This document shows, piece by piece, positions 1,693 to 16,527 of a DNA stretch of 21,159 nucleotides. Source of the DNA: a virus; the IMG/VR virus record IMGVR_UViG_3300009502_000234, positions 1 through 21,159 of that record; one strand, 5' to 3'. The translations under genes were made by a program, and so were the position numbers. The notes below the pieces were generated by a model. The model was not told the DNA's origin and did no database searches. It was given only the letters and a program-made list of their open reading frames with translations. Positions within the stretch are counted from its first letter, which is position 1; every line of letters starts with the position of its first letter.

Positions 1693-1802
1693 TAAATGAA
1701 ATAGATTTAGAAAAAAAAGAATACGAAGGATGTTTATTTATATTAATAGTAATACTAACTATATCATGTTTAATCGGATTAATATATGGATACTTCTTTT
1801 AA
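1689..1802 (+). CDS. Small single-pass membrane protein, 37 aa
   Basis: ATG at 1689 overlaps the preceding TGA (ATGA) and the frame runs 37 codons to a TAA at 1800-1802. The first 14 residues are charged (MINEIDLEKKEYEG). The remaining 23 are almost wholly hydrophobic (CLFILIVILTISCLIGLIYG then YFF), which makes one membrane helix ending at the C-terminus. It overlaps the start of the glycosyltransferase gene by 17 bases. The ATGA junction and the sharp polar/hydrophobic division argue that it is a real gene. It could be a small holin-like, superinfection-exclusion or membrane-tethering protein, but nothing in the sequence decides among these. Confidence 0.6.
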   Translation: MINEIDLEKKEYEGCLFILIVILTISCLIGLIYGYFF

Positions 1803-2838
1803 TTCTAAATTCCTGGTACTCAGTTATTTACCACGCACTGCTTGTCCATTGTATAGACTAATTAATCCATACTCTAAGTTATCATCAATGGGTGTAGGAA
1901 CAAAGATATTAGAGTGTGATGGTGATATAAAGATGAGAAAGAGTGATTTTAATGAGTATAAATATATAGTACTACATACAGGATTTTGTAGTTTAGAGTT
2001 AATTAAACAACTCCATAGTATAGGTAAAATTGTAATAGTAGATAGTGATGATTATCATATATTGCCAGAATATCATGTATTACATAAGTTTTATAAAACA
2101 TCCAATACAGATAGAATAAGTAGTGTACTACGAGCAGCAGATATAATAACAACTACTAATGAGTTTTTAGCGGATAAATTAAAAGAGTATAATAAAAATG
2201 TATTTGTAATACCTAACTTTATACATCAAAGTGAGTATATGTATTTTCCACAAGTACAGGAAAAGGATTATAGTAAATTAAAAATTGCATATACTGGTGG
2301 TACTTGTCATCGTCAAGATATAGATGTAATTAAAGGATTAAATAGAGAATTAATGAAAAACAGTATAAACTATGAACTACATCTATATGGTAAAGGAAAA
2401 AATAAAGAGTTTGACCATTATTTTAATTTACTCACATATAATGGAAAATATGTAGATAATTTAGTATATCATGATTTTGTGGAAACTAAAGATTATTATT
2501 CTATATTCAATGATTTTAATATAGTATTAGCACCTTTAAAAATTGATACATTCAATAAATGTAAAAGTAATTTAAAATATTTAGAAGCTACATATTTTAA
2601 ATGTATACTAGCTGCAAGTAATATAAGTACATATAGTAAGGACATCAATAATGGGCATAATGGAATATTATTTAGTAATATAAAGGAATTAGTGAGTAAA
2701 TTACAATTAATAGAGCATAGACTTAAATTAGTATTACCAGAAATAATAAATTTAGCTGAAGAACAAATAGAAGAAGAATATAATATTAACCAGATAATGG
2801 AAAATTTTTTAAAACAACTTAACACATGGAGAGTATAA
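1786..2838 (+). CDS. Glycosyltransferase, GT-B fold (GT4-like)
   Basis: A 350-residue protein with the two-domain plan of GT-B retaining glycosyltransferases. The C-terminal half begins with a glycine-rich strand-loop (IAYTGGT, residues 167-173), then LHLYGKGK. The nucleotide-sugar-binding region reads IVLAPLKIDTF...KSNLKYLEATYF (246-270), with Glu267 at the position of the second acidic residue of the E-x7-E motif. By family it moves a sugar from an activated nucleotide donor to an acceptor. It opens a cassette of four sugar- or methyl-transfer genes, each overlapping the next, so they probably modify one glycan. Donor, acceptor and whether the target is virion, phage DNA or host surface are unknown. 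The start at 1786 lies inside the preceding small gene; a later start cannot be excluded. Confidence 0.8.
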   Translation: MDTSFNSKFLVLSYLPRTACPLYRLINPYSKLSSMGVGTKILECDGDIKMRKSDFNEYKYIVLHTGFCSLELIKQLHSIGKIVIVDSDDYHILPEYHVLHKFYKTSNTDRISSVLRAADIITTTNEFLADKLKEYNKNVFVIPNFIHQSEYMYFPQVQEKDYSKLKIAYTGGTCHRQDIDVIKGLNRELMKNSINYELHLYGKGKNKEFDHYFNLLTYNGKYVDNLVYHDFVETKDYYSIFNDFNIVLAPLKIDTFNKCKSNLKYLEATYFKCILAASNISTYSKDINNGHNGILFSNIKELVSKLQLIEHRLKLVLPEIINLAEEQIEEEYNINQIMENFLKQLNTWRV

Positions 2839-3470
2839 ATCCATATATTGCTATTTATACACACAAGGTAAAGGAATATTGTGACAAAGAGTTTTTTGAA
2901 CAACCTGAATTAAAAAAGTATAAGTATTATATAGTAGATAATACCAATGATAATTTAGAGTATTTTAATAAGTTAAAAACATTATATACTAATAATATAA
3001 CTCATATTGATATACCTATTACACCTAAAGAATCATTATTTAGAAGGAATGTAGTAGAATCAGTAAATTATTTACGTAATGATTTTATTAGTAAACCTGA
3101 GTATGATAATTTTATTATAATAGAAAGTGATTTAATACTTCCTGATAACGGAATAGAAATGTTATATAATAGTATAAGTAAAACTGTTAATTGGGGAATT
3201 ATAGGAGGACTATATTATAAAGGATTTCATGATTATAATAAAATAGGAGTACAACAAACTCATCATGTATTAAGTGGTTGTTCATTGTATAATAGAAAAT
3301 TAATAGAAGATACTGTATTTAGAATAGATGATAGTAATAAAGGAGCATTTCCAGATGCATGGATGAGTGTAGATGCTGGGGATAAAGGTTATAATTTATA
3401 TAATAATCATGATATTAAATGTAAACATTTACATGCTAAAGATGGACATAGAGGATGGAACAAACTATAA
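2826..3470 (+). CDS. Probable glycosyltransferase, GT-A-like
   Basis: A 214-residue protein that looks like a short GT-A fold enzyme. It has an N-terminal alternating strand-helix region (YIAIYTHKVKEY; YYIVDNTNDN). This leads to FIIIESDLILPDNGIEML around residues 96-113, where Glu100-Ser101-Asp102 after a hydrophobic strand takes the place of the metal-binding DxD. A later segment PDAWMSVDAGDKGYNLYNNHDIKCKHL resembles the acceptor-side region of such enzymes. It overlaps the upstream glycosyltransferase by 13 bases and the methyltransferase by 16. The GT-A call rests on the motif pattern and context and is weaker than for the flanking glycosyltransferases. Confidence 0.65.
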   Translation: MESINPYIAIYTHKVKEYCDKEFFEQPELKKYKYYIVDNTNDNLEYFNKLKTLYTNNITHIDIPITPKESLFRRNVVESVNYLRNDFISKPEYDNFIIIESDLILPDNGIEMLYNSISKTVNWGIIGGLYYKGFHDYNKIGVQQTHHVLSGCSLYNRKLIEDTVFRIDDSNKGAFPDAWMSVDAGDKGYNLYNNHDIKCKHLHAKDGHRGWNKL

Positions 3471-4012
3471 TTGAGTATAAACCAACAATATTTAATACAC
3501 CTAAAAAGTTAATAAAATTAGGTACTGCGTGGGTAGGATTAGAATCTATAATATATGATATACTTGTTAGGTTTAATATAAATACAAATATTGCATTAGA
3601 ATTTGGAGTAGAGTGGGGGTTTTCTACAGCAGCATTTGCAAATTATTTTACTCAAGTAGTAGGTGTAGATACTTTTACAGGAGATATACATAGTGGGGTA
3701 AAACAATGTCATTTAAATAGTACAAAAGAAAATTTAAAAGATTTTGATAATATAGTACTAATAAAAAGTGATTATAAAGAGTTTATAAAAAATAATAAAA
3801 ATCGTTATAATTTAATACATGTAGATATAGTTCATGATTATGAACATACTTATGAATGTGGGTTATGGTCAGTTAATCATAGTGATGTGACATTGTTTCA
3901 TGATACAGTATCTTTTAATGATGTTAATAATGCTGTGAAAGATATATGTAAATTAATTGGTAAAACTTATTATAATTATCCAAAACATTATGGATTGGGA
4001 ATAATAGTATGA
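3455..4012 (+). CDS. Class I SAM-dependent methyltransferase
   Basis: A 185-residue protein with a class I Rossmann methyltransferase core. Motif I is EFGVEWG at residues 49-55 (SAM-binding loop), followed by a strand ending VVGVDTF with acidic Asp72 to bind the SAM ribose. A later LIHVDIVHDYEHTYECG segment carries the Asp/His pattern seen in the Methyltransf_24-type enzymes that act on sugars and small molecules. No DNA-methyltransferase catalytic motif (DPPY or PC) is present. Lying between glycosyltransferases with overlapping ends, it most likely O-methylates a sugar made by this cassette. The methyltransferase call is firm; the sugar substrate is inferred from context. Confidence 0.78.
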   Translation: MEQTIIEYKPTIFNTPKKLIKLGTAWVGLESIIYDILVRFNINTNIALEFGVEWGFSTAAFANYFTQVVGVDTFTGDIHSGVKQCHLNSTKENLKDFDNIVLIKSDYKEFIKNNKNRYNLIHVDIVHDYEHTYECGLWSVNHSDVTLFHDTVSFNDVNNAVKDICKLIGKTYYNYPKHYGLGIIV

Positions 4013-4710
4013 TAGATTTATTTACATTTTGTTATAACGAAGAGTTTATGATACCATTTTTTATAAGGCACTATAGTACTATAGTAGATAGTATAACAGT
4101 ATATGATAATAAAAGTACTGATAGATCATGTGAAATATTAATATACGAATGTCTTAAATATAGAATTCCATTAACTATTATAAAATATGATACGGAAAAT
4201 CAGCAAGATGAATTCAAATTAATAGAATTAAAAAGTACAGTGTGGAAAGATTCTAAAGCTGATTATGTAATAGTATGTGATATGGATGAATTTATAGATT
4301 TATGTAACTTTGAAAATGAATTAGAAAAAAGATATAGTATTTATAAATTAGAAGGGTATCAAATGTATAGTAAATTAGAAGAATTAGAATATTTAAAACC
4401 TATAACGGAACAAATTAGAACAGGAATAAAAGATACATTATATGATAAATGTATATTATTCAAACCTACTATAAATGAAATAAAATATAGTGTAGGCGCA
4501 CACGTATGTTATAATGATAATATATACAATAGTAATATAAAATTATTACATTATAAAAATATAGGAATTAATAGAACTTTAAAATTATTTAAAGAACGTC
4601 AATTTAGAACTAATAAAATGTTTGAATTAAATATGGATTGGCATTATAGATTACCACAACAAGAAATAATAGATAAATTTGAAATTGGAACTAAACAACA
4701 AATAATTTAA
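4009..4710 (+). CDS. Glycosyltransferase, GT-A fold (GT2/GT92-like)
   Basis: A 233-residue protein with clear GT-A features: FCYNEEFMIPFFIRHY at the N-terminus (the NEE signature), VYDNKSTDRS at residues 31-40, and CDMDEF at 90-95, where Asp91 and Asp93 form the metal-binding DxD. Family members of the Glyco_tranf_2_4/GT92 kind add single sugars, often to polysaccharide or protein-linked glycans. No membrane segment is seen, so it is probably cytosolic. Its ATG overlaps the methyltransferase TGA (ATGA), and it closes the glycan cassette. Acceptor unknown. Confidence 0.82.
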   Translation: MIDLFTFCYNEEFMIPFFIRHYSTIVDSITVYDNKSTDRSCEILIYECLKYRIPLTIIKYDTENQQDEFKLIELKSTVWKDSKADYVIVCDMDEFIDLCNFENELEKRYSIYKLEGYQMYSKLEELEYLKPITEQIRTGIKDTLYDKCILFKPTINEIKYSVGAHVCYNDNIYNSNIKLLHYKNIGINRTLKLFKERQFRTNKMFELNMDWHYRLPQQEIIDKFEIGTKQQII

Positions 4711-5564: not shown

Positions 5565-5912
5565 ATGCAAATAGAAAATTTTGATAAATTACAAGAATTA
5601 AGTGAAGATTATAAAACCTATTCTGAAGTAGTAAAAGAATATGAGAAGTATTTAGAAATAGGTGAAGTAGGAATGATTAAAATTGATTTAGTAGCTAAAG
5701 ATAATTTATGTGTAGAAGATCATAAATTAGTAGTTGAAAATCCATTAACACAAGGATCAATACATAGAGCTTTTAGTAAAGGAAAAAGAATATATACTAT
5801 AGGTAGTAAAGATAAAGAAATGGGTGAAACAATGTGGAAATTTATGATAAATTTCTATAAAGAAAAAGCTAATAAAATTAAAGAAGAATTTGAGTCAATT
5901 AAAATTAAATAA
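5565..5912 (+). CDS. Hypothetical protein, 115 aa
   Basis: A 115-residue soluble protein with no recognised family. It has a helical N-terminus (LQELSEDYKTYSEVVKEYEKYLE), a central segment with strand-like pattern (VGMIKIDLVAKDNLCVEDHKLVV), then a Gly/Lys-containing stretch and a lysine-rich C-terminal helix ending KIKEEFESIKIK. It sits five bases after the previous stop and two before the ferritin start, so it probably shares their transcript. Confidence 0.65.
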   Translation: MQIENFDKLQELSEDYKTYSEVVKEYEKYLEIGEVGMIKIDLVAKDNLCVEDHKLVVENPLTQGSIHRAFSKGKRIYTIGSKDKEMGETMWKFMINFYKEKANKIKEEFESIKIK

Positions 5913-5914
5913 CT

Positions 5915-6421
5915 ATGGAACTTAAAAAGAGAATATCAGAAGAAGTAGAAAAACTACTTAATGAACGAATTAAAGGTGAATATCAATCAGCATACATTTA
6001 TTGGGCTATGTCTAATTGGTGTGATTGTTATGGGTTTTTTAAAGCTAAAGATAAATATCGTAAGTATGGTGATGAAGAAATTAGTCATGCTAGAAAATTA
6101 GAAGATTATATTAATGATAGGAATGGTAAAGTAGTGTTACAAGTTATTCCTGTACCACAACAAGAATTTAAATCATTACTAGATGTTATTACTAAATCTT
6201 ATGAGCATGAACAAGTAGTAACAGATAATTATACTAAATTAGCAAGTGCAATATTTAATACTGATAAAGTAACGTTTGCAGAATTACAATGGTTTGTTAC
6301 TGAACAAATAGAAGAAGAAGCTAAGTTTGCTGATGCTATTATATTTGCTAACAGATTAGGTATTACAGATGAAACAACTGGTGTAGAGTTAGCAGAATTA
6401 GAAGATTTTCTTACTAAATAA
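5915..6421 (+). CDS. Ferritin (FtnA-type, intact ferroxidase site)
   Basis: A 168-residue protein of normal bacterial ferritin length. It has four-helix-bundle spacing and a full set of ferroxidase ligands: Glu22 in the first helix (ERIKGEYQSAYIYWAMSNWC), Glu55 and His58 in EEISHARKLEDY, Glu99 in SYEHEQVV, and Gln131 and Glu134 in EQIEEEAKFADA. In the family 24 subunits form a hollow shell that oxidises Fe(II) and stores it as mineral, protecting the cell from iron-driven oxidative damage. It has no bacterioferritin haem-binding Met or Dps-type dimer site that I can see. The gene lies in the overlapping small-gene chain, with the same A/T-rich codon use as its neighbours, so it is a settled part of the phage. 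In infection it could buffer iron or peroxide. Confidence 0.9.
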   Translation: MELKKRISEEVEKLLNERIKGEYQSAYIYWAMSNWCDCYGFFKAKDKYRKYGDEEISHARKLEDYINDRNGKVVLQVIPVPQQEFKSLLDVITKSYEHEQVVTDNYTKLASAIFNTDKVTFAELQWFVTEQIEEEAKFADAIIFANRLGITDETTGVELAELEDFLTK

Positions 6422-6423
6422 AT

Positions 6424-6624
6424 GTGGTTTTAACATTAGATCAAGTTAAAGTACTAGCAGATAGACTATGTAACCGTACAGGAATAAAATATATAGTCTA
6501 TTTATGCAGTACTGGAACTTACGAATTAACTGAAATTAATAATAGAAGTAAGTTGAAAAAAGAACAAATAAAATACATAACTGGAGAAAATAATGGTAAA
6601 ACAAGTACGATTAGGAGTAAATGA
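6424..6624 (+). CDS. Hypothetical protein, 66 aa, GTG start
   Basis: A 66-residue frame beginning at a GTG two bases after the ferritin stop; the nearby ATG at 6422 is in another frame and stops after three codons, and there is no internal ATG. The protein starts VLTLDQVKVLADRLCNRTGIKYIVYLCSTGTYE and ends in a basic tail. Two cysteines, no metal-site pattern. It overlaps the next gene by 32 bases. The rare start makes the exact 5' end less certain than the frame. Confidence 0.5.
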   Translation: MVLTLDQVKVLADRLCNRTGIKYIVYLCSTGTYELTEINNRSKLKKEQIKYITGENNGKTSTIRSK

Positions 6625-6991
6625 ACTTACCTTCTATAAATCATATATAGGAATAATAAATATTTTATATAAGTTAGAACTTACTAGACAACAACAATAT
6701 ATGTTTGCTGAATTGTTATATCAGAATAATAAGTATAAAGATTTAACTAGAGAAGAACGAAATGTAATTATATTTAGTACTGTTATTCGAAAGGAAATGA
6801 TGGATAGATTAAAAGTAGATGTAGGTACATTTAATAATAATATAAGTTTATTTAGAAAACAAAAGGGATTACAAGGAAGTATTATACAAGGTAAAGAGTT
6901 AAATGAAAATTATATAGTATATCCAGATAAAGATAATCAAATTAATATTAATTTACAAATAAACTATGGTACAACTCCAGGTATTAAATGA
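6593..6991 (+). CDS. Hypothetical protein, possible winged-helix DNA-binding
   Basis: A 132-residue, basic, largely helical protein. A central segment, LTREERNVIIFSTVIRKEMMDRLKVDVGTFNNNISLFRKQKGL, reads like a helix-turn-helix in which DVGTFNNNISLFRKQ would be the recognition part. The short strand pair after it would be a wing. This is an inference from residue pattern, not a recognised named family. The gene overlaps both neighbours (32 bases upstream, 26 downstream). It could be a phage regulator or a packaging/replication accessory protein. Confidence 0.6.
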   Translation: MVKQVRLGVNELTFYKSYIGIINILYKLELTRQQQYMFAELLYQNNKYKDLTREERNVIIFSTVIRKEMMDRLKVDVGTFNNNISLFRKQKGLQGSIIQGKELNENYIVYPDKDNQININLQINYGTTPGIK

Positions 6992-7238
6992 TATAGTTAG
7001 AAATAAAAAAGATGGTACTCAAAAGTTAATAGCTAAAAATATTAAATGTAGAATATGGGTTAGACCAGATAGAATATTAAGTGTTGGTGAAATAATACGA
7101 AATAAGAATAATATATATAAAACTAGATGTGAAGTTAGTGTTGAGAATGTTGGTAATCTTATAGTTAATATTAATGTTGATAAGTTAATAGATTTGTTAA
7201 GTAAAAATAAACCATTGGTAGGATATGTCAGACGTTAA
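6966..7238 (+). CDS. Hypothetical protein, 90 aa
   Basis: A 90-residue basic protein with alternating hydrophobic residues that suggest a small beta-rich fold (KNIKCRIWVRPDRILSVGEIIRNKNNIYKTRCEVSVENVGNLIVNINVDKLI). No family recognised. It overlaps the upstream gene by 26 bases and the following one by 14. Coding status rests on these overlaps and on codon use matching the neighbours. Confidence 0.6.
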   Translation: MVQLQVLNDIVRNKKDGTQKLIAKNIKCRIWVRPDRILSVGEIIRNKNNIYKTRCEVSVENVGNLIVNINVDKLIDLLSKNKPLVGYVRR

Positions 7239-7509
7239 CAGAATACAGGAACAGGAAGGGGTTATTAAGTTATATAGAGAATTAGCACAAGTACATAATA
7301 TTCCTATAGCAGAAATTAGAATAATAGTTCGTAGTCAATTTGCATTAATAGCAGATAATATTAGAAATACTAATTTAGAAGATAGTACTACTTATGATTA
7401 TGCAAGATTAGTTAATTTTGGAGTATTTTGTATAGATAAATCTGCAATAAATAAATATTTTAGATACAAAAAAATCAATGACAAATTACATAGTGAGTCT
7501 TTGGGGTAG
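7225..7509 (+). CDS. Small protein, possibly HU/IHF-like
   Basis: A 94-residue protein. The run LAQVHNIPIAEIRIIVRSQF, ALIADNIRN, then YDYARLVNFGVFCIDKSA follows the order of the HU/IHF N-terminal half: two helices, then a strand with an R-hydrophobic-FG-x-F turn. In that family the fold bends DNA. The long DNA-gripping arm is not obvious, so only the body may be conserved. Crassvirales are known to carry IHF-like genes near their structural block, which makes the idea reasonable. It ends in TAG, the only TAG stop in the window, and overlaps the next gene by 32 bases. Confidence 0.6.
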   Translation: MSDVNRIQEQEGVIKLYRELAQVHNIPIAEIRIIVRSQFALIADNIRNTNLEDSTTYDYARLVNFGVFCIDKSAINKYFRYKKINDKLHSESLG

Positions 7510-7945
7510 AGAGTATAATATTAAAGAAACTACATCTATAGAATGTATGACTGAAGATACATTATATGAATGTAAATGTGGTAATAAATTTATATGTAAA
7601 CGGGGATATAAACCACAATATAAGTATGATAATGATGATATAAAGAAAATGGTTAAAAATAACCCTATACTATATTATGGTAATCAAAAAAATATGGATG
7701 AAGACTTTAAAACATGTGAGTGTGGTAATAGATTTAACAATATGAAATTATTATATCCTAAATATATCCCATCTATAGCTCCTACAATTAGAATTAGAAC
7801 TGAACCGGATTTAGATATTAGTTATCATGAAGATGAAAGAAAACAAACTAATTGGTGGGAATTAGGTGGTGGTGTAGAAGAGTATAAAGATATACATCAT
7901 GGGGATGACCCACATAATAATGATAGAGTAATAAGACAAACATGA
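7478..7945 (+). CDS. CxC zinc-ribbon-like protein, 155 aa
   Basis: A 155-residue protein with two matching cysteine knuckles: CKCGNKF (Cys32, Cys34) and CECGNRF (Cys80, Cys82), about 46 residues apart, plus Cys40 close to the first. Paired CxCGN turns of this kind form a four-Cys zinc ribbon, which usually binds nucleic acid or stabilises a small domain. The C-terminal 70 residues are polar and rich in His, Asp and Trp (TNWWELGGGVEEYKDIHHGDD), of unknown role. It overlaps the upstream gene by 32 bases and shares an ATGA with the next. Its position just before the packaging genes allows, but does not show, a role there. Confidence 0.65.
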   Translation: MTNYIVSLWGREYNIKETTSIECMTEDTLYECKCGNKFICKRGYKPQYKYDNDDIKKMVKNNPILYYGNQKNMDEDFKTCECGNRFNNMKLLYPKYIPSIAPTIRIRTEPDLDISYHEDERKQTNWWELGGGVEEYKDIHHGDDPHNNDRVIRQT

Positions 7946-8520
7946 ATAAATTAATAGAACTTAATAGTGAAAATAATTTAGTTATACAACCAGAAGCATT
8001 AGTTATAGATGCTTATGCTGTTGTATGGAATAGAGATAAAAGTAAAGATAAAAAGTTGGCGATCAAAGAATTAACATTTGTATATTTTATGTGTAGTTTA
8101 GATAGATTAAATGTATATAAAGAATATGTACCAGAAGAACGGTTAAAAATGATAAAAGAAGACATGATGCCTAAAGATTGGAAAGTAGATAAAATAATAA
8201 AAGATGCTATAGAACAATATAAAAAACATAATTATTCAGCTACTACAGAATTAGTAATTGCTGCACAAAAAGCTGCTGATAATTTAAAGAAGTTCTTTGA
8301 GGAAATAGATTTAAATGAACGAGATACTGATACAGGAAAACCTATTCATAAGGCAACAGACTTAATGCGAAATTTAAAAGAGATGGCAGGAGTACGTAAA
8401 GGGTTACAAGAGTTACTACAAATGGAAGAAGAAGAAAAGACAGACAAAGGTAAAGTTAGAGGTGGTGGTAGAATAGGATTATTTGAAAATCATAAAATGG
8501 ACAAACAAATAAATATTTAA
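7942..8520 (+). CDS. Conserved-looking phage protein upstream of TerL (TerS candidate)
   Basis: A 192-residue, mostly helical, charged protein. The N-terminal half has VIDAYAVVWNRDKSKDKKLAIKE, then LTFVYFMCSLD; the middle is a long helix region rich in Ala and Lys (about residues 90-120). The tail is basic and Gly-rich (KVRGGGRIGLF). No small terminase subunit is otherwise evident, and this gene sits one gene before TerL, so TerS or another packaging accessory is possible. There is no clear helix-turn-helix, so this stays a weak inference. It begins in an ATGA overlap with the zinc-ribbon gene. Confidence 0.6.
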   Translation: MNKLIELNSENNLVIQPEALVIDAYAVVWNRDKSKDKKLAIKELTFVYFMCSLDRLNVYKEYVPEERLKMIKEDMMPKDWKVDKIIKDAIEQYKKHNYSATTELVIAAQKAADNLKKFFEEIDLNERDTDTGKPIHKATDLMRNLKEMAGVRKGLQELLQMEEEEKTDKGKVRGGGRIGLFENHKMDKQINI

Positions 8521-8521
8521 T

Positions 8522-8842
8522 ATGAGTAATAAATATTACCCAATAGACTTTGCTTATGAAAGAGTAGGAGGAGGAATTGATTTTGTAGGAATACATAATC
8601 AAATGCCTGGTATAAATTATGGATATTTTTATATAGATTTTGAATGTGACGACAAAGAATATTTTAGAAAAGGTAATGTATTAGTTGATAATACAGGAAA
8701 ATATCAAATAGAGTTAATAGATGAGCCTATTAATTTTAAATATAGAATAAATAGATATAAATGTAGAGTTAATAGTACTAATCCTAATAGTTATATTCCT
8801 GTAGAAAGATTACAGAAAGGGGTACTATGGAAAAAGTTATAA
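8522..8842 (+). CDS. Hypothetical protein, 106 aa
   Basis: A 106-residue protein rich in Tyr, Asn, Gly and Asp with a beta-strand-like pattern (YPIDFAYERVGGGIDFVGIHN; YGYFYIDFEC). It contains a repeated basic-aromatic turn near the end (FKYRINRYKCRVNS). No family recognised. It begins one base after the previous stop and overlaps the TerL start by 16 bases, so it is probably translated with TerL. Confidence 0.6.
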   Translation: MSNKYYPIDFAYERVGGGIDFVGIHNQMPGINYGYFYIDFECDDKEYFRKGNVLVDNTGKYQIELIDEPINFKYRINRYKCRVNSTNPNSYIPVERLQKGVLWKKL

Positions 8843-11067
8843 AGAAATATGATATACCAGAAAATATAATAGAATTTAATATCCCTATACCAATAGATGA
8901 TAATGAGTTATCAACTACATTAGGGCAGTCATATCCACCAGATAGTTTTGAATATAAAATAGTACAGCATTTTTGTAATGGAGAAAAGTTACCAGACTTC
9001 TCTCCATTTTTGCTTACTAGACAATTCTTTCAAGAAAATGGATATTATACTAATTTACGATATAATGGACACCCAGATAGTGCATATTTTAAATTTTGGG
9101 AGTCAGAACAACGTAAATGTATAGATGGTATAGATTGTGATATAGATAGACAAATATGGAAAATAACAGGATATTATTATTGGTATTTAACATTTAGTCC
9201 AATACATAGAGTAAAAGAAATAGGTAAAAATCCTATAACTGGTAAAGTAATGTCAGAACGTACTTATGCATTACCTGATATATATGATATAGACTATTTT
9301 TGGTTTTTATATGTAGATGAAGCTAGAAATCGTGGGCAACATGCTAGTTGTTTAAAGAAAAGAGGTATTGGTTTTTCATTTAAAGCTATGAGTATGTTAA
9401 CTCGTAATTTTTATATGATACCAAAGAGTAAAGGATATGCTGTGGCGGAATCATGGGATTATCTAACTAAAAAAGATGGTTTAATTAATAAGGTATCGGA
9501 ACATTTAGCATTTATAGATGAATTTACAGCATTTGGTAAAAGGCGTCAAGTAAAAGATACTGATGAGTTAAGAAGAACATCATATTGGGAAACTGATCCT
9601 GAAACTGGTAATAAAATACAAAAAGGTTATATGTCAGAAATGATAGCTATAACACTAGAAGGTAAGCCAGATAAAATGAGAGGGCTTAGGGGTCAATTAA
9701 TATTATACGAAGAGTCAGGTAATAATGCATGTATACAACAAGCATGGGAGATTAGTAGGAGTTCTGTAGAAGCTGGAGACTATGTGTATGGACAGTTAAT
9801 ATCGTTTGGAACTGGTGGCACAATTGGTAGTGGGTTTGAGGGGTTAGAGCGTATGACTAGAGATCCTAATAGTTTTAATATATATGGAATACCTAATATA
9901 TGGGAACGAAATAGGATACGACAACGAATAGGATTTTTTGTACCAGATTATATATGTAGAGAAGGTAATATAGATAAACATGGTAATTCAGACATATGTA
10001 CTGCACTACAATCTGAGTTAAAAGAAAGAGAGACTAAAAAAGGTAATCCATTAGTATTAAGACAAAGAATGGCAGAGCATCCATTTACTATAGATGATGC
10101 TATTATGCGAACTGATGGTAGTCCATTTGATCTACAAATGATACGTGAACAAAAAGCAGAGTTAATGGTTAATCCTATATATAAAGGGAGTGCTTATGTA
10201 GGAGAGATGATAATTAAAACTGATGGTATAGTAGACTTTAAAGTAAACCCCATATTAAAACCTATAATGGAATTTGATACTAAAAAGGGTAAACGACTAG
10301 AGGAACAAGATGGGTGTATAGTTATTTATGAAATGCCTGTACCAGATAGTAAAGGAAAAATAGGTTTTGGATGGTATGTAGCAGGAACAGATCCTATTAA
10401 TCTTGATAGAGATGATGTGAAGGATAATTTTTCATTAGCTAGTACATTTATATTAAATAGATTTACTAGACGTATAGTAGCTGAATATACAGGTAGACCA
10501 AGATTAGCTGCTACATTTTATGAACAATTACGTAGATTATTACTATTTTATAATTGTCAAACACTATTAGAAGTAAATATAGTAGGTGTATTTGAACATT
10601 TTAATAAATATAATTGTACACATTTATTAGCTGAAACTCCATCATTATTTAGGGATATGAATATAGGTGCTAGGGGAATGGGTAATAATATAGGTGTTAA
10701 ATCTGACCCACGTGGGCAAGTTAAAGCATTAGGTAGACAATATATAATAAAATGGATGGAAGAAGTTATAGAGAATGAAGTAACGGAAAATGGAGAAGTA
10801 AAGACACGATTCATGTGTAACACTATCAGAAGTATTCCATTACTACAAGAAATGGAACAGTGGTGTAAAGAAGGTAATTATGATAGAATAGACGCATTAA
10901 GTTATGCATTATTACATTTAGAGGAAAAAGTTAAGATAGTTCAGGATAGAACAAATACTCATAAAAGTGTATTAAATGATCCATTTTGGCATAAATTATC
11001 TGGTAATAGAACTAAACAACCTGCTATAACTATAGATAGAAATGGTATGATAAAAGTACATAATTAA
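8827..11067 (+). CDS. terL: Terminase large subunit (packaging ATPase-nuclease)
   Basis: A 746-residue TerL with both domains. The ATPase has a variant Walker A loop, KKRGIGFSFK (177-186), where the usual GK[ST] is GFS, so the ATP-contacting base is probably Lys177, Lys178 or Arg179. Walker B is LILYEE (291-296) and the coupling motif is SFGTGGT (326-332). The RNase H-like nuclease has VAGTD (Asp522), LLEVN (Glu582) and YDRIDALSYA (Asp686/Asp689) as metal ligands. TerL cuts concatemers and pumps DNA through the portal into the prohead. Length is at the large end for the family and similar to Bacteroidota phages. It is followed by the portal gene, the usual order. No small terminase gene is certain. 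Confidence 0.93.
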   Translation: MEKVIKKYDIPENIIEFNIPIPIDDNELSTTLGQSYPPDSFEYKIVQHFCNGEKLPDFSPFLLTRQFFQENGYYTNLRYNGHPDSAYFKFWESEQRKCIDGIDCDIDRQIWKITGYYYWYLTFSPIHRVKEIGKNPITGKVMSERTYALPDIYDIDYFWFLYVDEARNRGQHASCLKKRGIGFSFKAMSMLTRNFYMIPKSKGYAVAESWDYLTKKDGLINKVSEHLAFIDEFTAFGKRRQVKDTDELRRTSYWETDPETGNKIQKGYMSEMIAITLEGKPDKMRGLRGQLILYEESGNNACIQQAWEISRSSVEAGDYVYGQLISFGTGGTIGSGFEGLERMTRDPNSFNIYGIPNIWERNRIRQRIGFFVPDYICREGNIDKHGNSDICTALQSELKERETKKGNPLVLRQRMAEHPFTIDDAIMRTDGSPFDLQMIREQKAELMVNPIYKGSAYVGEMIIKTDGIVDFKVNPILKPIMEFDTKKGKRLEEQDGCIVIYEMPVPDSKGKIGFGWYVAGTDPINLDRDDVKDNFSLASTFILNRFTRRIVAEYTGRPRLAATFYEQLRRLLLFYNCQTLLEVNIVGVFEHFNKYNCTHLLAETPSLFRDMNIGARGMGNNIGVKSDPRGQVKALGRQYIIKWMEEVIENEVTENGEVKTRFMCNTIRSIPLLQEMEQWCKEGNYDRIDALSYALLHLEEKVKIVQDRTNTHKSVLNDPFWHKLSGNRTKQPAITIDRNGMIKVHN

Positions 11068-11146: not shown

Positions 11147-13612
11147 ATGATAACAGGTTTAAGTATTACATCTAGTGTATTCCCAAGTCAATTAGTTGAT
11201 ACTGAGAAGAAACAAGATGAAAAATGGCAAAAAGATTGTGTAGATGGCGGTATTAATAAAGTACTCTACACAAATGATTATATGAGAAAGAGTAAGCAAG
11301 ATAAAGTAGAGAACTATAGTATAGTTCATGGCAAATTTGATAGGAAAAAATTACTAGCACATCTTAATCCATTAATGTTGGAACAGGATGATATGGATGA
11401 TGATGTATATGAATTATTTGGAGATTCAGATGGGTATGCTATTATATTAGCACCATTAAAGACATTATTTGGTGAAGAATTAAAACGTAATTTTGATCCT
11501 AGAGCTTATGTAGTAAATGCAGATGCAGTAAGTGAGAAGGAAAGACTTATTAAAGATAAAGTTAATAAATTTTTAGATGAATTATTACAAGAGCAATTAA
11601 GTGAAGATGAAGTAAAGAAACGAACTGAGCAACTATTACAATGGAAAAATAAAGATGCTCAGACTATACATGAAACAATGGCTAATAATACATTAAAACA
11701 TTTTCTACCTAAACAACAATTTAAATGGAAGATGAATGATTGTTGGAAAGATTTATGTATAGCTGCTGAAGAATCTGTATATATAGGAGATGCTAACGGT
11801 GAGCCTTATATAAGAAAAACTAATCCATTACAAATAATGTGGTATGGTAATGGGCAGTCTAATAAAATACAAGATGCTACTATTATAGTAGAATGGGGAT
11901 ACTATAGTATATCTGCTATATTAACAGAATTTGGTAAAAAGATAAAAGAAGAAGATTTAATTAAATTAGAAAATTATCTTAATTATGGGACAACATCTAG
12001 TGGTAGTTTAATTAAAACTGCACAAGTAGCACCATTTGTAAATATACACAATGTAATGTTACCATTAGATGATATGTCATATTCTGAAACAGGATTTTCC
12101 CCATTTGGTTATACATGGTATGATAGACAAGGTAATATTCTAGTAGTAAGAGTAAATTGGTTGTCTCAACGTAAAATTGGTGATTTAAGTTATCCAGATG
12201 AATTTGGAGAGACTCAGCATAAATTTGTACCTGAATGGTATAAAGTTAATAAAGATGTTGGAGAAACTGTAGATTGGTTTTGGATAAATGAGTGGATGTC
12301 TGGTATTAAAATAGGATATGATATTTATGCTGATATTAAAGTTAATGAAGTTCAGTATAGAAGTATAACTAATCCAGCAATATGTAGACCACCTTATGTA
12401 GGTATAGTATCTAATATTAATAGTGGTAGAGCATATAGTATAGTAGATTCTATTAAAGAATTTGCTTATGAATATATAGTATATGCTAAAAAGTTAAAAC
12501 ACCTATGGTTAACTAACTTAGGTAGAATTGCCAATATAGATACTGCTAGTATTCCTACAGGTATGATGGAAGATGGTAGTAAATGGGATTTAAAACGTTG
12601 GTTTAATTTTATAAAAACACATCGTATAGCACTACGTAATAGTTTTCAAGAAGATAATAAAGGACATGCTGTAGGTAATATGCAGTCTCAAACTGGTTAT
12701 ATAGATATGACTGCTACTACTGAGATTGACCAAATAATAAGATATTTAGAGTATATAGAATCTAAAATAGATAAACTTAGTGGAGTTAGCCCACAAAGAC
12801 AAGGTGATATAGCACCTTCTCAAGGATTAGGTACAAGTAATCAAGCTGTAGCGTATTCAGCAACTCAAACAGAGGATTTGTTTAATATGCATGAGGAATT
12901 TAAACTAGATGTATTAAGATTCTTTTTAGAACAAGCTAAATGGTGTTTAAAAGATAAAAAAGTATTAGTACAAAATATACTAGATGACCAACAAATAAAA
13001 CTAATAGAGATTGATGGTGCATTATTTTCAGAAGCAGAATATGATATACAAATAACTAATTCGTATAAATTACAAGAATTTGAACGTATATTAAAAGGTG
13101 ATATATTAAGTAGAGCTGTACAAAATGGGTCAGTACAAATATCTGATGTAGCTGAAATGATGTTGTCAAATAGTCCAACTGATATGATTAATAGATTAAA
13201 AGTTGGAGAAAATAAAAAGATAGAAATGGAACAACAAAATCAGCAACAACAATTACAAATGCAACAAAAACAATTAGATGTACAAAGAGAAATGTTAGCA
13301 TTACAGCATAAAAATAAATTAGAAGAAATGGCTTTCCAAAGAGAAACTGATATGATGAAATTACAATTGCAATTACAAGATAAAGCTAATGCTGATGTAT
13401 TTGGTCAATATTATAAAGATACTAATTTAAATGGTATAGATGATGATATAGAATTAAAAAAACAAGAATTAGTTAATACTGATAAAGAAAAACAAAGAAC
13501 ACATGATGCAACACAATCAGAAAAAGATCGTAAACTACAGTTAGACTTGACTGAAAAAGATAATCAGACTAAATTAAAGATAGCTCATAGTAAAAAAAGT
13601 ACAACTAATTAA
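11147..13612 (+). CDS. Portal protein
   Basis: An 821-residue protein directly after TerL, the standard position and a normal size for portals of crAss-like phages. The N-terminal part has the FPSQ segment (residues 12-15), then a mixed alpha/beta wing region. The central part (about residues 440-600) has the long helical stem pattern, and DKLSGVSPQRQGDIAPSQGLG is a conserved-looking loop. The last 120 residues form a Gln/Lys-rich coiled coil (MEQQNQQQQLQMQQKQ) interrupted by an EF-hand-like loop (residues 758-769). Portals are 12-subunit rings at one capsid vertex through which DNA enters and leaves. The call rests on order, size and layout rather than on a single catalytic motif. It has its own promoter. 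Confidence 0.82.
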   Translation: MITGLSITSSVFPSQLVDTEKKQDEKWQKDCVDGGINKVLYTNDYMRKSKQDKVENYSIVHGKFDRKKLLAHLNPLMLEQDDMDDDVYELFGDSDGYAIILAPLKTLFGEELKRNFDPRAYVVNADAVSEKERLIKDKVNKFLDELLQEQLSEDEVKKRTEQLLQWKNKDAQTIHETMANNTLKHFLPKQQFKWKMNDCWKDLCIAAEESVYIGDANGEPYIRKTNPLQIMWYGNGQSNKIQDATIIVEWGYYSISAILTEFGKKIKEEDLIKLENYLNYGTTSSGSLIKTAQVAPFVNIHNVMLPLDDMSYSETGFSPFGYTWYDRQGNILVVRVNWLSQRKIGDLSYPDEFGETQHKFVPEWYKVNKDVGETVDWFWINEWMSGIKIGYDIYADIKVNEVQYRSITNPAICRPPYVGIVSNINSGRAYSIVDSIKEFAYEYIVYAKKLKHLWLTNLGRIANIDTASIPTGMMEDGSKWDLKRWFNFIKTHRIALRNSFQEDNKGHAVGNMQSQTGYIDMTATTEIDQIIRYLEYIESKIDKLSGVSPQRQGDIAPSQGLGTSNQAVAYSATQTEDLFNMHEEFKLDVLRFFLEQAKWCLKDKKVLVQNILDDQQIKLIEIDGALFSEAEYDIQITNSYKLQEFERILKGDILSRAVQNGSVQISDVAEMMLSNSPTDMINRLKVGENKKIEMEQQNQQQQLQMQQKQLDVQREMLALQHKNKLEEMAFQRETDMMKLQLQLQDKANADVFGQYYKDTNLNGIDDDIELKKQELVNTDKEKQRTHDATQSEKDRKLQLDLTEKDNQTKLKIAHSKKSTTN

Positions 13613-13728: not shown

Positions 13729-14961
13729 ATGGCAAAATCTATTTATGATGATGACGACCAAGTAACATTGGTTATTCCAGATGATGATATATTTAATCTA
13801 CCTAAAATGTTTGAAGGAGATGGAACTGATATATCTAGTGTTCCTAAAGGTGGTGAAATTATAGATAAAACAGCAGAAATAGAAAAGACTATTAAAGCTA
13901 CATCTAAAAAGAAACCTATAGAAAAAGAAGAAGTTCTTTTATCTACAGAAGATGATGATGATGTTATAAAACCAGAGAATGATGATGAAGATGAACAAGA
14001 AGAACCCAAGTCTACATCTAAAGATAAAAAGACTAAACAATCTGAGAAAAAAGTAGAAACTAAAAAGGATAATAAAAAAGCAGAAGTAGAAGCTCCTACT
14101 TATGAATTAGATTATAATCCTATACTCCAAAGGTTAAAAGAGAAAGAAGTACTTACTATAGATTTACCAGAAAATGTAGAATCTGATGAAGATTTGTTAA
14201 ATGTATTTGAACAAGAAGCTATCGCATATAAAAATGATTATCATAATTATATGGATAGTAAATATAATGGTTTACTTACGTATTTAGAAGAAGGAGGGGA
14301 CGCATTAAATTTCTTTAAAACAGTTAAAGAAAATAATTATGATGAAATAGAATTTGATAAAATTAGAGAAGATCAAACAGCTAAAGAAAAAGCATATATT
14401 GATTTTTATAAAACTAAAGATATGGACGATGAAGATATTATGCGTAATATGAAACGTGCAAAAGATTTAGAAGAATTTAATATTGAAGTAGAAAAAATAT
14501 ATCCTAAACTTCAAAAACAAAGTAAACAACAAAAAGAAACGTTAAAAAAGGAAGCTAAAGAAAAAGAACAAAAAAGAGTAGATCAAGAAAAGATATTATA
14601 CCATAATATTTCTAGTACTATTCTAAAATCTGAAGAACTTATTCCTACGATTAAACTTAAAGAAAGTGACAAAAAAGCAATTACTAAATTAGCAGTATCT
14701 AATGATGTATTTAATAAATTATCACAAGACCCAGTAAAAAGTAGAATATTATTATCTGCATTAGCACATTATGGTATTTTAGATGGAAATTGGGATAAAA
14801 TTATAAAGAATATTGAAACAGGTAAAGTTAAGGAGTTAAAGTCACAGTTCTTAAAGAATCCTAGTAAAGGTAGTGAGACTAATGTTGATTTAACTAATAA
14901 TGATGATGACATTGGTGGAAGTATCGCTAAGAGTTACATGAAAACGTTTGCTAAACGGTAA
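13729..14961 (+). CDS. Acidic scaffold-like protein
   Basis: A 410-residue, highly charged protein between portal and major capsid genes, the usual place of a scaffolding protein. The first 125 residues are disordered-looking, with Asp/Glu clusters (DDDD near residue 5; DNDDEDEQEE-type runs near 85-92) and a Lys-rich stretch. The middle is a long helical and coiled region (about residues 200-290, rich in Glu, Lys and Gln), followed by a more compact C-terminal part ending SIAKSYMKTFAKR. Scaffolds guide capsid assembly and leave before packaging; an internal cargo or capsid-completion protein is the main alternative. No protease is evident in the window. Own promoter upstream. Confidence 0.6.
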   Translation: MAKSIYDDDDQVTLVIPDDDIFNLPKMFEGDGTDISSVPKGGEIIDKTAEIEKTIKATSKKKPIEKEEVLLSTEDDDDVIKPENDDEDEQEEPKSTSKDKKTKQSEKKVETKKDNKKAEVEAPTYELDYNPILQRLKEKEVLTIDLPENVESDEDLLNVFEQEAIAYKNDYHNYMDSKYNGLLTYLEEGGDALNFFKTVKENNYDEIEFDKIREDQTAKEKAYIDFYKTKDMDDEDIMRNMKRAKDLEEFNIEVEKIYPKLQKQSKQQKETLKKEAKEKEQKRVDQEKILYHNISSTILKSEELIPTIKLKESDKKAITKLAVSNDVFNKLSQDPVKSRILLSALAHYGILDGNWDKIIKNIETGKVKELKSQFLKNPSKGSETNVDLTNNDDDIGGSIAKSYMKTFAKR

Positions 14962-14988: not shown

Positions 14989-16527
14989 ATGGCAGTACAA
15001 AAAGGTCAAGTTCGACCCTTTCAATTATATGAGGGTCAATGGCATACTGGGTTAACAATGGAAACCCACTTAGCCAATATGTATAAAAAGATGCCTTATT
15101 ATGCATCTGATATGGTAGAGAAAATGTTCGAATCTACTTTTGGAGACGATATTATTTCTCATGTAAATCAATATCCTGTATTTAAAGCTAAAGATAGAGT
15201 ATATCGTTGGTTAGGTGTTGGTATGACAGAGAAGAATATTCCTTTAATTCAAGCATGGGAAGATAAATCAGGTAGTATTCCTGTAGGTACATCTACACCT
15301 TATATTGGTGCAAACTCTACAGATTTCTTCTTAGATTTTGGAGAAAAGTTGTTTGGTAGTAAACAACATATCGTAGGTATGAAACCTGATCTATATAGAT
15401 TATGGATTCTTGAAGAACCTACAATGATTGAAGCTGGACGTTGGAGATACAGGTGTCAATTAACTGGTTCTGATGGGGTATATATTCCTAAAGAAGAGTT
15501 AAAAGCTGGAACAAGATGGTCAGGTGATGGTGGTTTGGTTGCAAATGACTTTTCACGTGATGGTTATCAACCTACATTTACTAGTCCATTTGAATTTGAG
15601 AATAGAATGTCTCAATTCCGTACTATGATTAAAGTACCTGGTTCAGTTTATCGTGAAGGTAAATATGGTGATAATGTTTATATGTTCAAATTCTTAGATT
15701 CTGATGGTAATCAACACAAAATTTGGTTTGATGCATATTGGTACACATTTTTAAAAATGAACAGAGTTGATAGAGCTAAAAAATTCTTGTATGACAAATC
15801 TAACAAATTAGCTGATGGAACAACTGCTAACGTAGATTCACAAACAGGTATGCCAGCAGATGAAGGTTCAGGATTATATGAACTTATGTCAGCAGGTAAT
15901 ATTCACCCATACTATCCAGGTGGTTTATCAGTAGATTATATCACTAAAGTTATTTTGGATGCGTCTGTAACTAAAGTACCTGAAGATAAACGTGCTATTA
16001 CAATTATGGCAGGTGAATATGGTCTAGTAGATTTGCATAAAATGTTACGTAGAGATTTGATTTCTACATATACAACTCCAGCTTATATGGGGGATACTAC
16101 TGGTCGTGCTTATCAATGGTCAGGTAATAAAGTTCATGTAAACTTAGGTCAGATTACTGGTTATGCTGATGTTAATGGTGTTAAAGTAACATTCATGCAT
16201 GCTCCACATAAAGATAATCCAACTCGTAATAAATTGTTATATCAAAATGGTGGTCGTGCTAGTTCATACGAATATGATATTTTAGACTTTGGTACTACTA
16301 ATGGTCGTCCAAATATCCAACGTGTAGAATTAGAAGGTGAGAATGATATTTACGCATTACAATTAGGTATTAGATCAGCATTTGGATCTCGTGGTTCTGA
16401 AAAGATGCCAGCTATAGTATCAACTGAAACAGATATGGATGTTATCCATTATATGTCTTGGATTGGTTCTATTATTTGGAATCCTACTAAGGTTATTAGA
16501 TTAATACCTGCTGTTCTTTACAGATAA
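14989..16527 (+). CDS. Major capsid protein
   Basis: A 512-residue protein in the expected place after portal and scaffold. It has the mixed alpha/beta, Gly/Tyr/Trp-rich composition of HK97-fold capsid proteins of Bacteroidota phages. The N-terminal region carries HLANMYKKMPYYASDMVEKM (helical, residues 27-46). The C-terminal region is beta-rich (NDIYALQLGIRSAFG, VIRLIPAVLYR). Codon use differs from the neighbours: Arg is about half CGT (13 by my count) rather than mostly AGA, and GGT is frequent, as expected for the most abundant protein. The start at 14989 is the first ATG of the frame, 27 bases after the scaffold stop, in an A/T-rich leader without Shine-Dalgarno. It may share the transcript from the promoter at 13681. 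Confidence 0.8.
   Translation: MAVQKGQVRPFQLYEGQWHTGLTMETHLANMYKKMPYYASDMVEKMFESTFGDDIISHVNQYPVFKAKDRVYRWLGVGMTEKNIPLIQAWEDKSGSIPVGTSTPYIGANSTDFFLDFGEKLFGSKQHIVGMKPDLYRLWILEEPTMIEAGRWRYRCQLTGSDGVYIPKEELKAGTRWSGDGGLVANDFSRDGYQPTFTSPFEFENRMSQFRTMIKVPGSVYREGKYGDNVYMFKFLDSDGNQHKIWFDAYWYTFLKMNRVDRAKKFLYDKSNKLADGTTANVDSQTGMPADEGSGLYELMSAGNIHPYYPGGLSVDYITKVILDASVTKVPEDKRAITIMAGEYGLVDLHKMLRRDLISTYTTPAYMGDTTGRAYQWSGNKVHVNLGQITGYADVNGVKVTFMHAPHKDNPTRNKLLYQNGGRASSYEYDILDFGTTNGRPNIQRVELEGENDIYALQLGIRSAFGSRGSEKMPAIVSTETDMDVIHYMSWIGSIIWNPTKVIRLIPAVLYR

Follow-up and report, generated by a model that had tools for sequence, protein, structure and literature searches.

Bacterial ferritins are known to take up Fe2+ through the protein shell; the di-iron centre then uses O2 or H2O2 as oxidant, and the iron is laid down as a ferric mineral. 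Site C is a typical feature of the bacterial FTNs (PMC4771812). Ferritin-superfamily genes are already known in phages, including the Dps type in gut crAss phages and, in the relevant sections of PMC8008677, Dps together with Mn-catalase in the 'Gratiaviridae'. A benefit under oxidative stress was proposed in those sections for the Dps and Mn-catalase of gut phages, and the same benefit was proposed for the Dps of a Lactobacillus phage (PMC6669764). The enzymes of 'Gratiaviridae' and 'Flandersviridae' are also phage-borne iron and ROS enzymes with this proposed role, but they belong to other branches of the superfamily and to other phage families, and the FtnA type is not named in the same sections (PMC8008677).

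The ferritin studied here lies in a viral sequence record 21,159 bases long, the whole of which is called the window. Its fold is shared by phrog_16594 (unknown function), by the BFVD entry A0A8D9C9X5 of an uncultured marine phage and by the 'putative ferritin' of Thermus phage phiLo, which are uncharacterised and whose crAss context is undescribed; the phiLo protein was found to differ in several metal-site columns. The EncFtn of encapsulins pairs a ferritin with an HK97-type shell and resembles the present case by analogy only. The EncFtn subunit, as described in the relevant part of PMC5012862, contains two main helices, whereas the window protein contains the full FtnA-type fold. An encapsulin cargo system, defined by EncFtn-type cargo that bears a shell-targeting peptide and is encoded in a cellular encapsulin operon, was rejected on the full FtnA fold and the presence of a phage MCP, terminase and portal. 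In a literature search of open-licence papers, no link between ferritin and Crassvirales was found; two papers name ferritin as well as crAss-like phages, and the pertinent one, PMC8008677, deals with Dps and Mn-catalase of other families.

Within Crassvirales, a close described system is the Dps-type mini-ferritin of Steigviridae, which was found as 'putative DpsA' in cr126_1 and crAss001 (gp7) and occurs in 47 phage records. In cr126_1 the DpsA gene shares the strand of TerL and precedes it by approximately 5 kb, and the window ferritin likewise lies upstream of TerL. The DpsA alignment contained invariant H43, H52, D56, D67 and E71 residues, the last four with an invariant H-4-D-11-D-4-E spacing that is the Dps spacing by comparison with E. 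coli Dps numbering. The DpsA profile matched only Dps-type structures in the PDB, and the proteins (L124:6497-6943, L129:3929-4378 and relatives) were found to contain an intact Dps metal site, although none of the curated Dps models matched crAss DpsA above cut-off and Pfam gave only DUF5856, below its own cut-off. Unlike the window ferritin, DpsA has a Dps-type site, a length of about 150 aa and no PF00210 match.

Identification of the phage and the gene neighbourhood

The TerL, portal and MCP of the window were found to be approximately 22-36% identical to those of crAss-type phages (Bacteroides crAss, Flavobacterium, Cellulophaga and Azobacteroides phages). By these three crAss-type proteins and the TerL tree, the window is identified as a fragment of a crAss-like phage (Crassvirales). 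Two other public contigs were found to be 99.94% identical over the shared stretch, one of 67,308 bp containing the whole window and one of 23,249 bp containing 16.5 kb of it, and the ferritin protein was 100% identical in both, giving three assemblies in all. In the 67-kb contig the genes to the left of the window lie on the other strand, and the window genes are part of the long rightward late/structural block.

The ferritin ORF (5915-6421, + strand) was found to extend from ATG to stop and to encode 168 aa. It lies in a tight same-strand chain, separated by gaps of 2 bases from the preceding gene (last base 5912) and from the following one (first base 6424). The ferritin is followed by a small ORF of 66 aa with a GTG start (6424-6624, +). 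In the related phages G305 and G383, small ORFs of 55 and 61 aa, respectively, were also present 3' of the ferritin. Their sequences could barely be aligned with that of the window ORF (28% over 47 aa for G305), and this conservation is too poor to support the ORF as a ferritin partner. Five small genes of 132, 90, 94, 155 and 192 aa (6593-8520, +) separate ferritin from TerL, with unchanged order in G305, and the 192-aa gene was assigned to phrog_16390, which is commonly located just upstream of the crAss TerL. These are followed by a 106-aa ORF (8522-8842, +) with similarity to a single domain of the major capsid protein of crassviruses (PF23898 Crass_capsid, 4.1e-07, profile positions 100-172); it is a stand-alone relative of this capsid domain and possibly a decoration or assembly protein, and no counterpart was seen at the equivalent place in G305.

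The structural genes, all on the + strand, comprised the crAss-type terminase large subunit (8827-11067; phrog_6681, 2.4e-100; 152 phage records, crAss-type), the crAss-type portal protein (11147-13612; phrog_6547, 1.3e-98), a putative scaffold/head-maturation gene assigned by its position in the portal-MCP interval and its homologues in G305 and G310 (13729-14961), and the crAss-type major capsid protein (14989-16527; phrog_11589, 2.4e-60). The location of the ferritin in a phage small-gene chain was thus borne out. The stretch upstream of the ferritin region (1786-4710) contains a cassette in which two glycosyltransferases are accompanied by a methyltransferase-like gene and one unknown gene, and in L253 (the ferritin locus of G383) a related glycosyltransferase was located directly upstream of the ferritin. 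The GC3 of the ferritin gene was 0.09, similar to that of the neighbouring genes.

Conserved metal ligands and class of the ferritin

The window protein was found to match Pfam Ferritin PF00210 with 6.8e-29 and 101.1 bits (curated cut-off 24.5). In the PDB sequence search, bacterial and archaeal ferritins were matched, the strongest being 1krq (1.3e-27), whereas the top NCBIfam model, PRK10304 non-haem ferritin, scored 88 bits, below the FtnA equivalog cut-off of 178. The complete ferritin ORF of the original prediction was confirmed with exact coordinates.

The intra-subunit di-iron ligands E22, E55, H58, E99, Q131 and E134, each of which had been predicted, were all found in the window protein and were invariant in the alignments. 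The conserved Tyr29 was likewise present and alignment-invariant, as were E54 and E130, two glutamates of site C. E133 of the C site was present in the window protein and near-invariant among the relatives; the protein thus contains the C site of prokaryotic Ftn (E54, E130, E133/E134). Residues E22, Y29, E54, E55, H58, E99, E130, Q131 and E134 were conserved in 22 of the 22 crAss ferritins examined, whereas E133 was replaced by Ser in two and W126 by Lys in eight of them. The Trp to Lys replacement (window position 126) was found in ferritins located between giant genes, namely L250, L251, L325, L328-L331 and similar loci. The PDB alignments are independent of the E. coli FtnA row used in the ligand alignment.

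A bacterioferritin (BFR) was ruled out by the Ftn ligand set with Q131 and the absence of the BFR-type His130 ligand. A Dps protein was ruled out by the Ftn site and the E helix, in place of the inter-subunit H...H-x3-D...D-x3-E site, and the DpsA profile gave no match in the window lineage. The FtnA-type assignment is upheld, on sequence and model, by PF00210, the Ftn ligand set, the C site and the E helix.

Predicted structure

The AlphaFold2 model of the window protein monomer (28 aligned sequences) was found to contain four long helices and an E helix, with a mean pLDDT of 93.4. The helices occupied residues 9-38, 42-68, 88-113, 118-147 and 157-167, the last being the short E helix that follows the four-helix bundle of a ferritin. 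The best solved match was the ferritin of Campylobacter jejuni, 1krq (TM 0.88, rmsd 1.6, Foldseek). A portal-linked relative, L268, was modelled with a pLDDT of 95.9 and matched the Vibrio cholerae ferritin with TM 0.94 and rmsd 0.9. The original prediction had been open to challenge by a model unable to form the metal site or the shell; the modelled monomer contained the five ferritin helices at TM 0.88, and its assembly into a 24-mer would be expected.

In comparison with FtnA of C. jejuni (1krq), E. coli (1eum/9bye) and V. cholerae (3qz3), the window protein was found to share the length, the five helices, the ferroxidase ligands, the Tyr and the C site, with TM 0.86-0.89 and 31-38% identity. 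It differs from FtnA in having at most approximately 35-44% identity to cellular ferritins, a one-residue deletion in the loop before D117, a score below the NCBIfam equivalog cut-off and a gene located in a phage late operon. With an intact di-iron centre, the C site and the fold, this protein of a crAss-like phage is predicted, from sequence and model, to be an FtnA-type ferritin competent for catalysis.

Occurrence and placement across crAss-like phages

Searching with a profile of the window TerL recovered 80 crAss-like contigs, 78 of which were not copies of the window. PF00210 ferritin was found in four of these 78 and in three of the nine that were at least 70 kb long, and further scans with ferritin alignments added more carriers. 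The crAss TerL and ferritin were found together in 24 records (the window, its two copies, 15 and a further six), and two more fragments contained a crAss portal, MCP and ferritin. The original prediction regarded a ferritin in a phage as unusual; a one-off gene is ruled out, as at least 24 crAss contigs carry it, and ferritin-superfamily proteins were already known in phages.

Three placements were found, all of them within the late morphogenesis operon. In the first, the ferritin is located approximately 3 kb upstream of TerL (the window, G305/L252 and G383/L253). The ferritins at this same site in the divergent phages G305 and G383 were 59-64% identical to the window protein, and the G305 order, ferritin-small-132-90-94-155-192-TerL-portal-scaffold-MCP, was that of the window minus the extra 106-aa ORF. 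In the second, the ferritin directly follows the portal or lies one gene further on, before the scaffold/MCP, in 10 lineages (L254, L255, L267, L268, L269, L270, L271, L272, L273/L274/L275 and L281). In the third, the ferritin lies between two giant late genes in nine lineages (L250/L282, L251, L277, L325, L328-L331 and L334); in G514 one of the two is homologous to the giant late gene of the window lineage, and neither Pfam nor PHROG gave a match to the giant late genes tested (proteins of 1200-2700 aa). L253 (104,710 bp) and L270 (99,711 bp) carry direct terminal repeats of 127 and 123 bp, respectively, so both look like complete genomes. The TerL frames of L270 and L281 were approximately 1130 and 1513 aa long, with the match split by long in-frame insertions that are perhaps inteins.

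The DpsA profile had no match in 22 environmental crAss records, including 12 ferritin carriers, and matched eight reference records; seven of these eight were the profile's own rows, so the matches serve as a control and not as a frequency. An exchange of Dps for ferritin among Crassvirales is suggestive only on these sequence searches, because ferritin-less environmental phages lack Dps too.

Ferritins were also found outside the crAss-like phages. Records L260, L261, L265 and L266 (34-198 kb) represent a separate non-crAss phage group in which the ferritin is opposite in strand to its neighbours and DUF3310-like genes lie nearby, and their ferritins formed their own 100% clade. A huge-phage contig of 395,473 bp (L099) contained a ferritin with the full ligand set. 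Unannotated phage-labelled records with ferritin (L090, OR845001.1; L089; L091-L093) may be host DNA.

Phylogeny and selection

Between the window and G305, MCP was 74%, ferritin 64%, portal 59% and TerL 50% identical, while the small neighbouring genes reached 27-46%. Closer ferritin pairs had a dN/dS of 0.016-0.15; the three comparisons of the window type, with a dS of approximately 0.8-1.1, gave 0.29-0.42. At sequence level, the ferritin is retained over the long term in many crAss-like lineages and is under purifying selection.

In a tree of 65 rows, all 16 crAss ferritins were found on one side of a branch with support of 99/80, and after addition of the best Bacteroidota matches to the crAss profile the crAss ferritin support was 92/79. 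When six crAss and four viral rows were added, 21 of the 22 crAss ferritins grouped with two TerL-less phage contigs and no cellular members (97/82). The window, L252 and L253 formed a group with 100/100. A single clade of all 22 crAss ferritins was formally rejected in the enlarged tree (p-AU 0.00014), because the two TerL-less phage contigs fall inside the group and the long-branched L281 outside it. A phage ferritin group lacking sampled cellular members stands with moderate support in these trees, and one origin of the crAss ferritins appears likely from them; long branches restrict what the sequences can tell of the ultimate cellular donor. A position beside host genes with host flanks, which would have spoken against the original prediction, was not found, as the crAss ferritins grouped together and phage flanks were present throughout the crAss copies. 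On the TerL tree, the presence of ferritin takes seven changes, at least six of them forced, so crAss lineages have lost the gene, gained it or passed it to one another. Horizontal exchange of ferritin among crAss lineages is suggested by this pattern, in which the tree cannot tell gain from loss.

Proposed function and alternative explanations

From its sequence and predicted structure, the protein is probably a late-expressed ferroxidase and iron store that would curb Fenton chemistry in the infected cell. Late in infection, ferritin subunits would form a hollow 24-mer, which would take up Fe2+; the ferroxidase centre would oxidise it, using O2 or H2O2, before it is stored as ferric mineral. 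This would keep free Fe2+ and peroxide low and spare newly synthesised phage DNA and proteins from Fenton damage at a time when the cell's own control of iron and stress would have been switched off. The ferritin would thereby fill the role thought to be that of the Dps-type mini-ferritin in Steigviridae crAss phages. Three observations count against this explanation: 172 of 296 sampled Bacteroidota genomes match ferritin, so that hosts are already equipped; presence among the TerL-selected records is patchy, as counted above; and the linkage with portal and giant late genes fits a structural or virion role too.

Bacterial ferritin serves both as iron store and as oxidant protection through the same enzyme, and crAss phages can persist alongside their hosts. 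Both points would suit a ferritin that acts as an iron buffer, supplying infection enzymes (Fe-S or di-iron) or keeping a carrier cell healthy rather than defending against oxidants. This reading is unlikely, as a scan of the 20 larger ORFs of the G383 genome, which has terminal repeats, turned up no ribonucleotide reductase or other obvious iron enzyme that could be its client, and late-operon timing would be too late for feeding DNA precursor synthesis.

The close linkage of the ferritin with portal and giant late genes raises the question of a role in the virion or in morphogenesis, in which the ferritin would be packaged in the particle or would help to build it, as capsid cargo or as an encapsulin-like iron-filled nanocage beside the HK97-type shell. 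The 10 portal-linked lineages (zero to one gene after the portal, before scaffold/MCP), the nine lineages with giant-gene neighbours and the restriction of all three sites to the late module speak for such a role. Its placement in the window, however, is upstream of TerL among small genes, and the accessory head region of 'Gratiaviridae', in the part of PMC8008677 that describes it, hosts a non-structural gene too, a kinase between portal and MCP. The virion atlas of crAss001 names neither Dps nor ferritin (PMC10172136), and the fully conserved ferroxidase ligands would be needless for a passive structural part, which makes this role quite unlikely. The bolder form, a phage-owned ferritin lineage tied to morphogenesis and either packed into the HK97-type capsid or its ejected cargo or built together with them, is decidedly improbable; if true, the virion itself would hold an iron store or bring a ferroxidase to the next host cell.

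That the gene was recently captured from a host, or that a host contig was wrongly binned as phage, is a very remote prospect: ferritin is common in Bacteroidota and some ferritin-bearing 'phage' records are unannotated and may be host pieces, but every crAss copy with flanking sequence lies between phage genes, 24 records contain crAss TerL, GC3 is as in the neighbours, the best cellular identity is only approximately 44% against 59-64% for L252/L253, the tree group is phage-only, and two ferritin-bearing contigs have terminal repeats, so that host contamination was ruled out by the two-sided phage genes, the GC3 and the repeats.

Significance for crAss-like phages

Measured against the open-licence papers searched, what appears to be new is that environmental crAss-like phages share a conserved lineage of FtnA-type ferritins, which occupies three fixed sites in the late operon. 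Related environmental phages keep the gene beside particle-building genes, so iron handling seems to be a lasting part of their life and would be a conserved, selected trait of many environmental crAss-like phages. The branches of Crassvirales would differ in this respect, with Dps in Steigviridae and the FtnA type in the environmental relatives studied. The ferroxidase and iron store proposed here offers an entry point to the question of whether reproduction in anaerobic or microaerobic Bacteroidota requires phages to control Fe2+ and peroxide, and it may bear on the movement of iron when such phages lyse cells.
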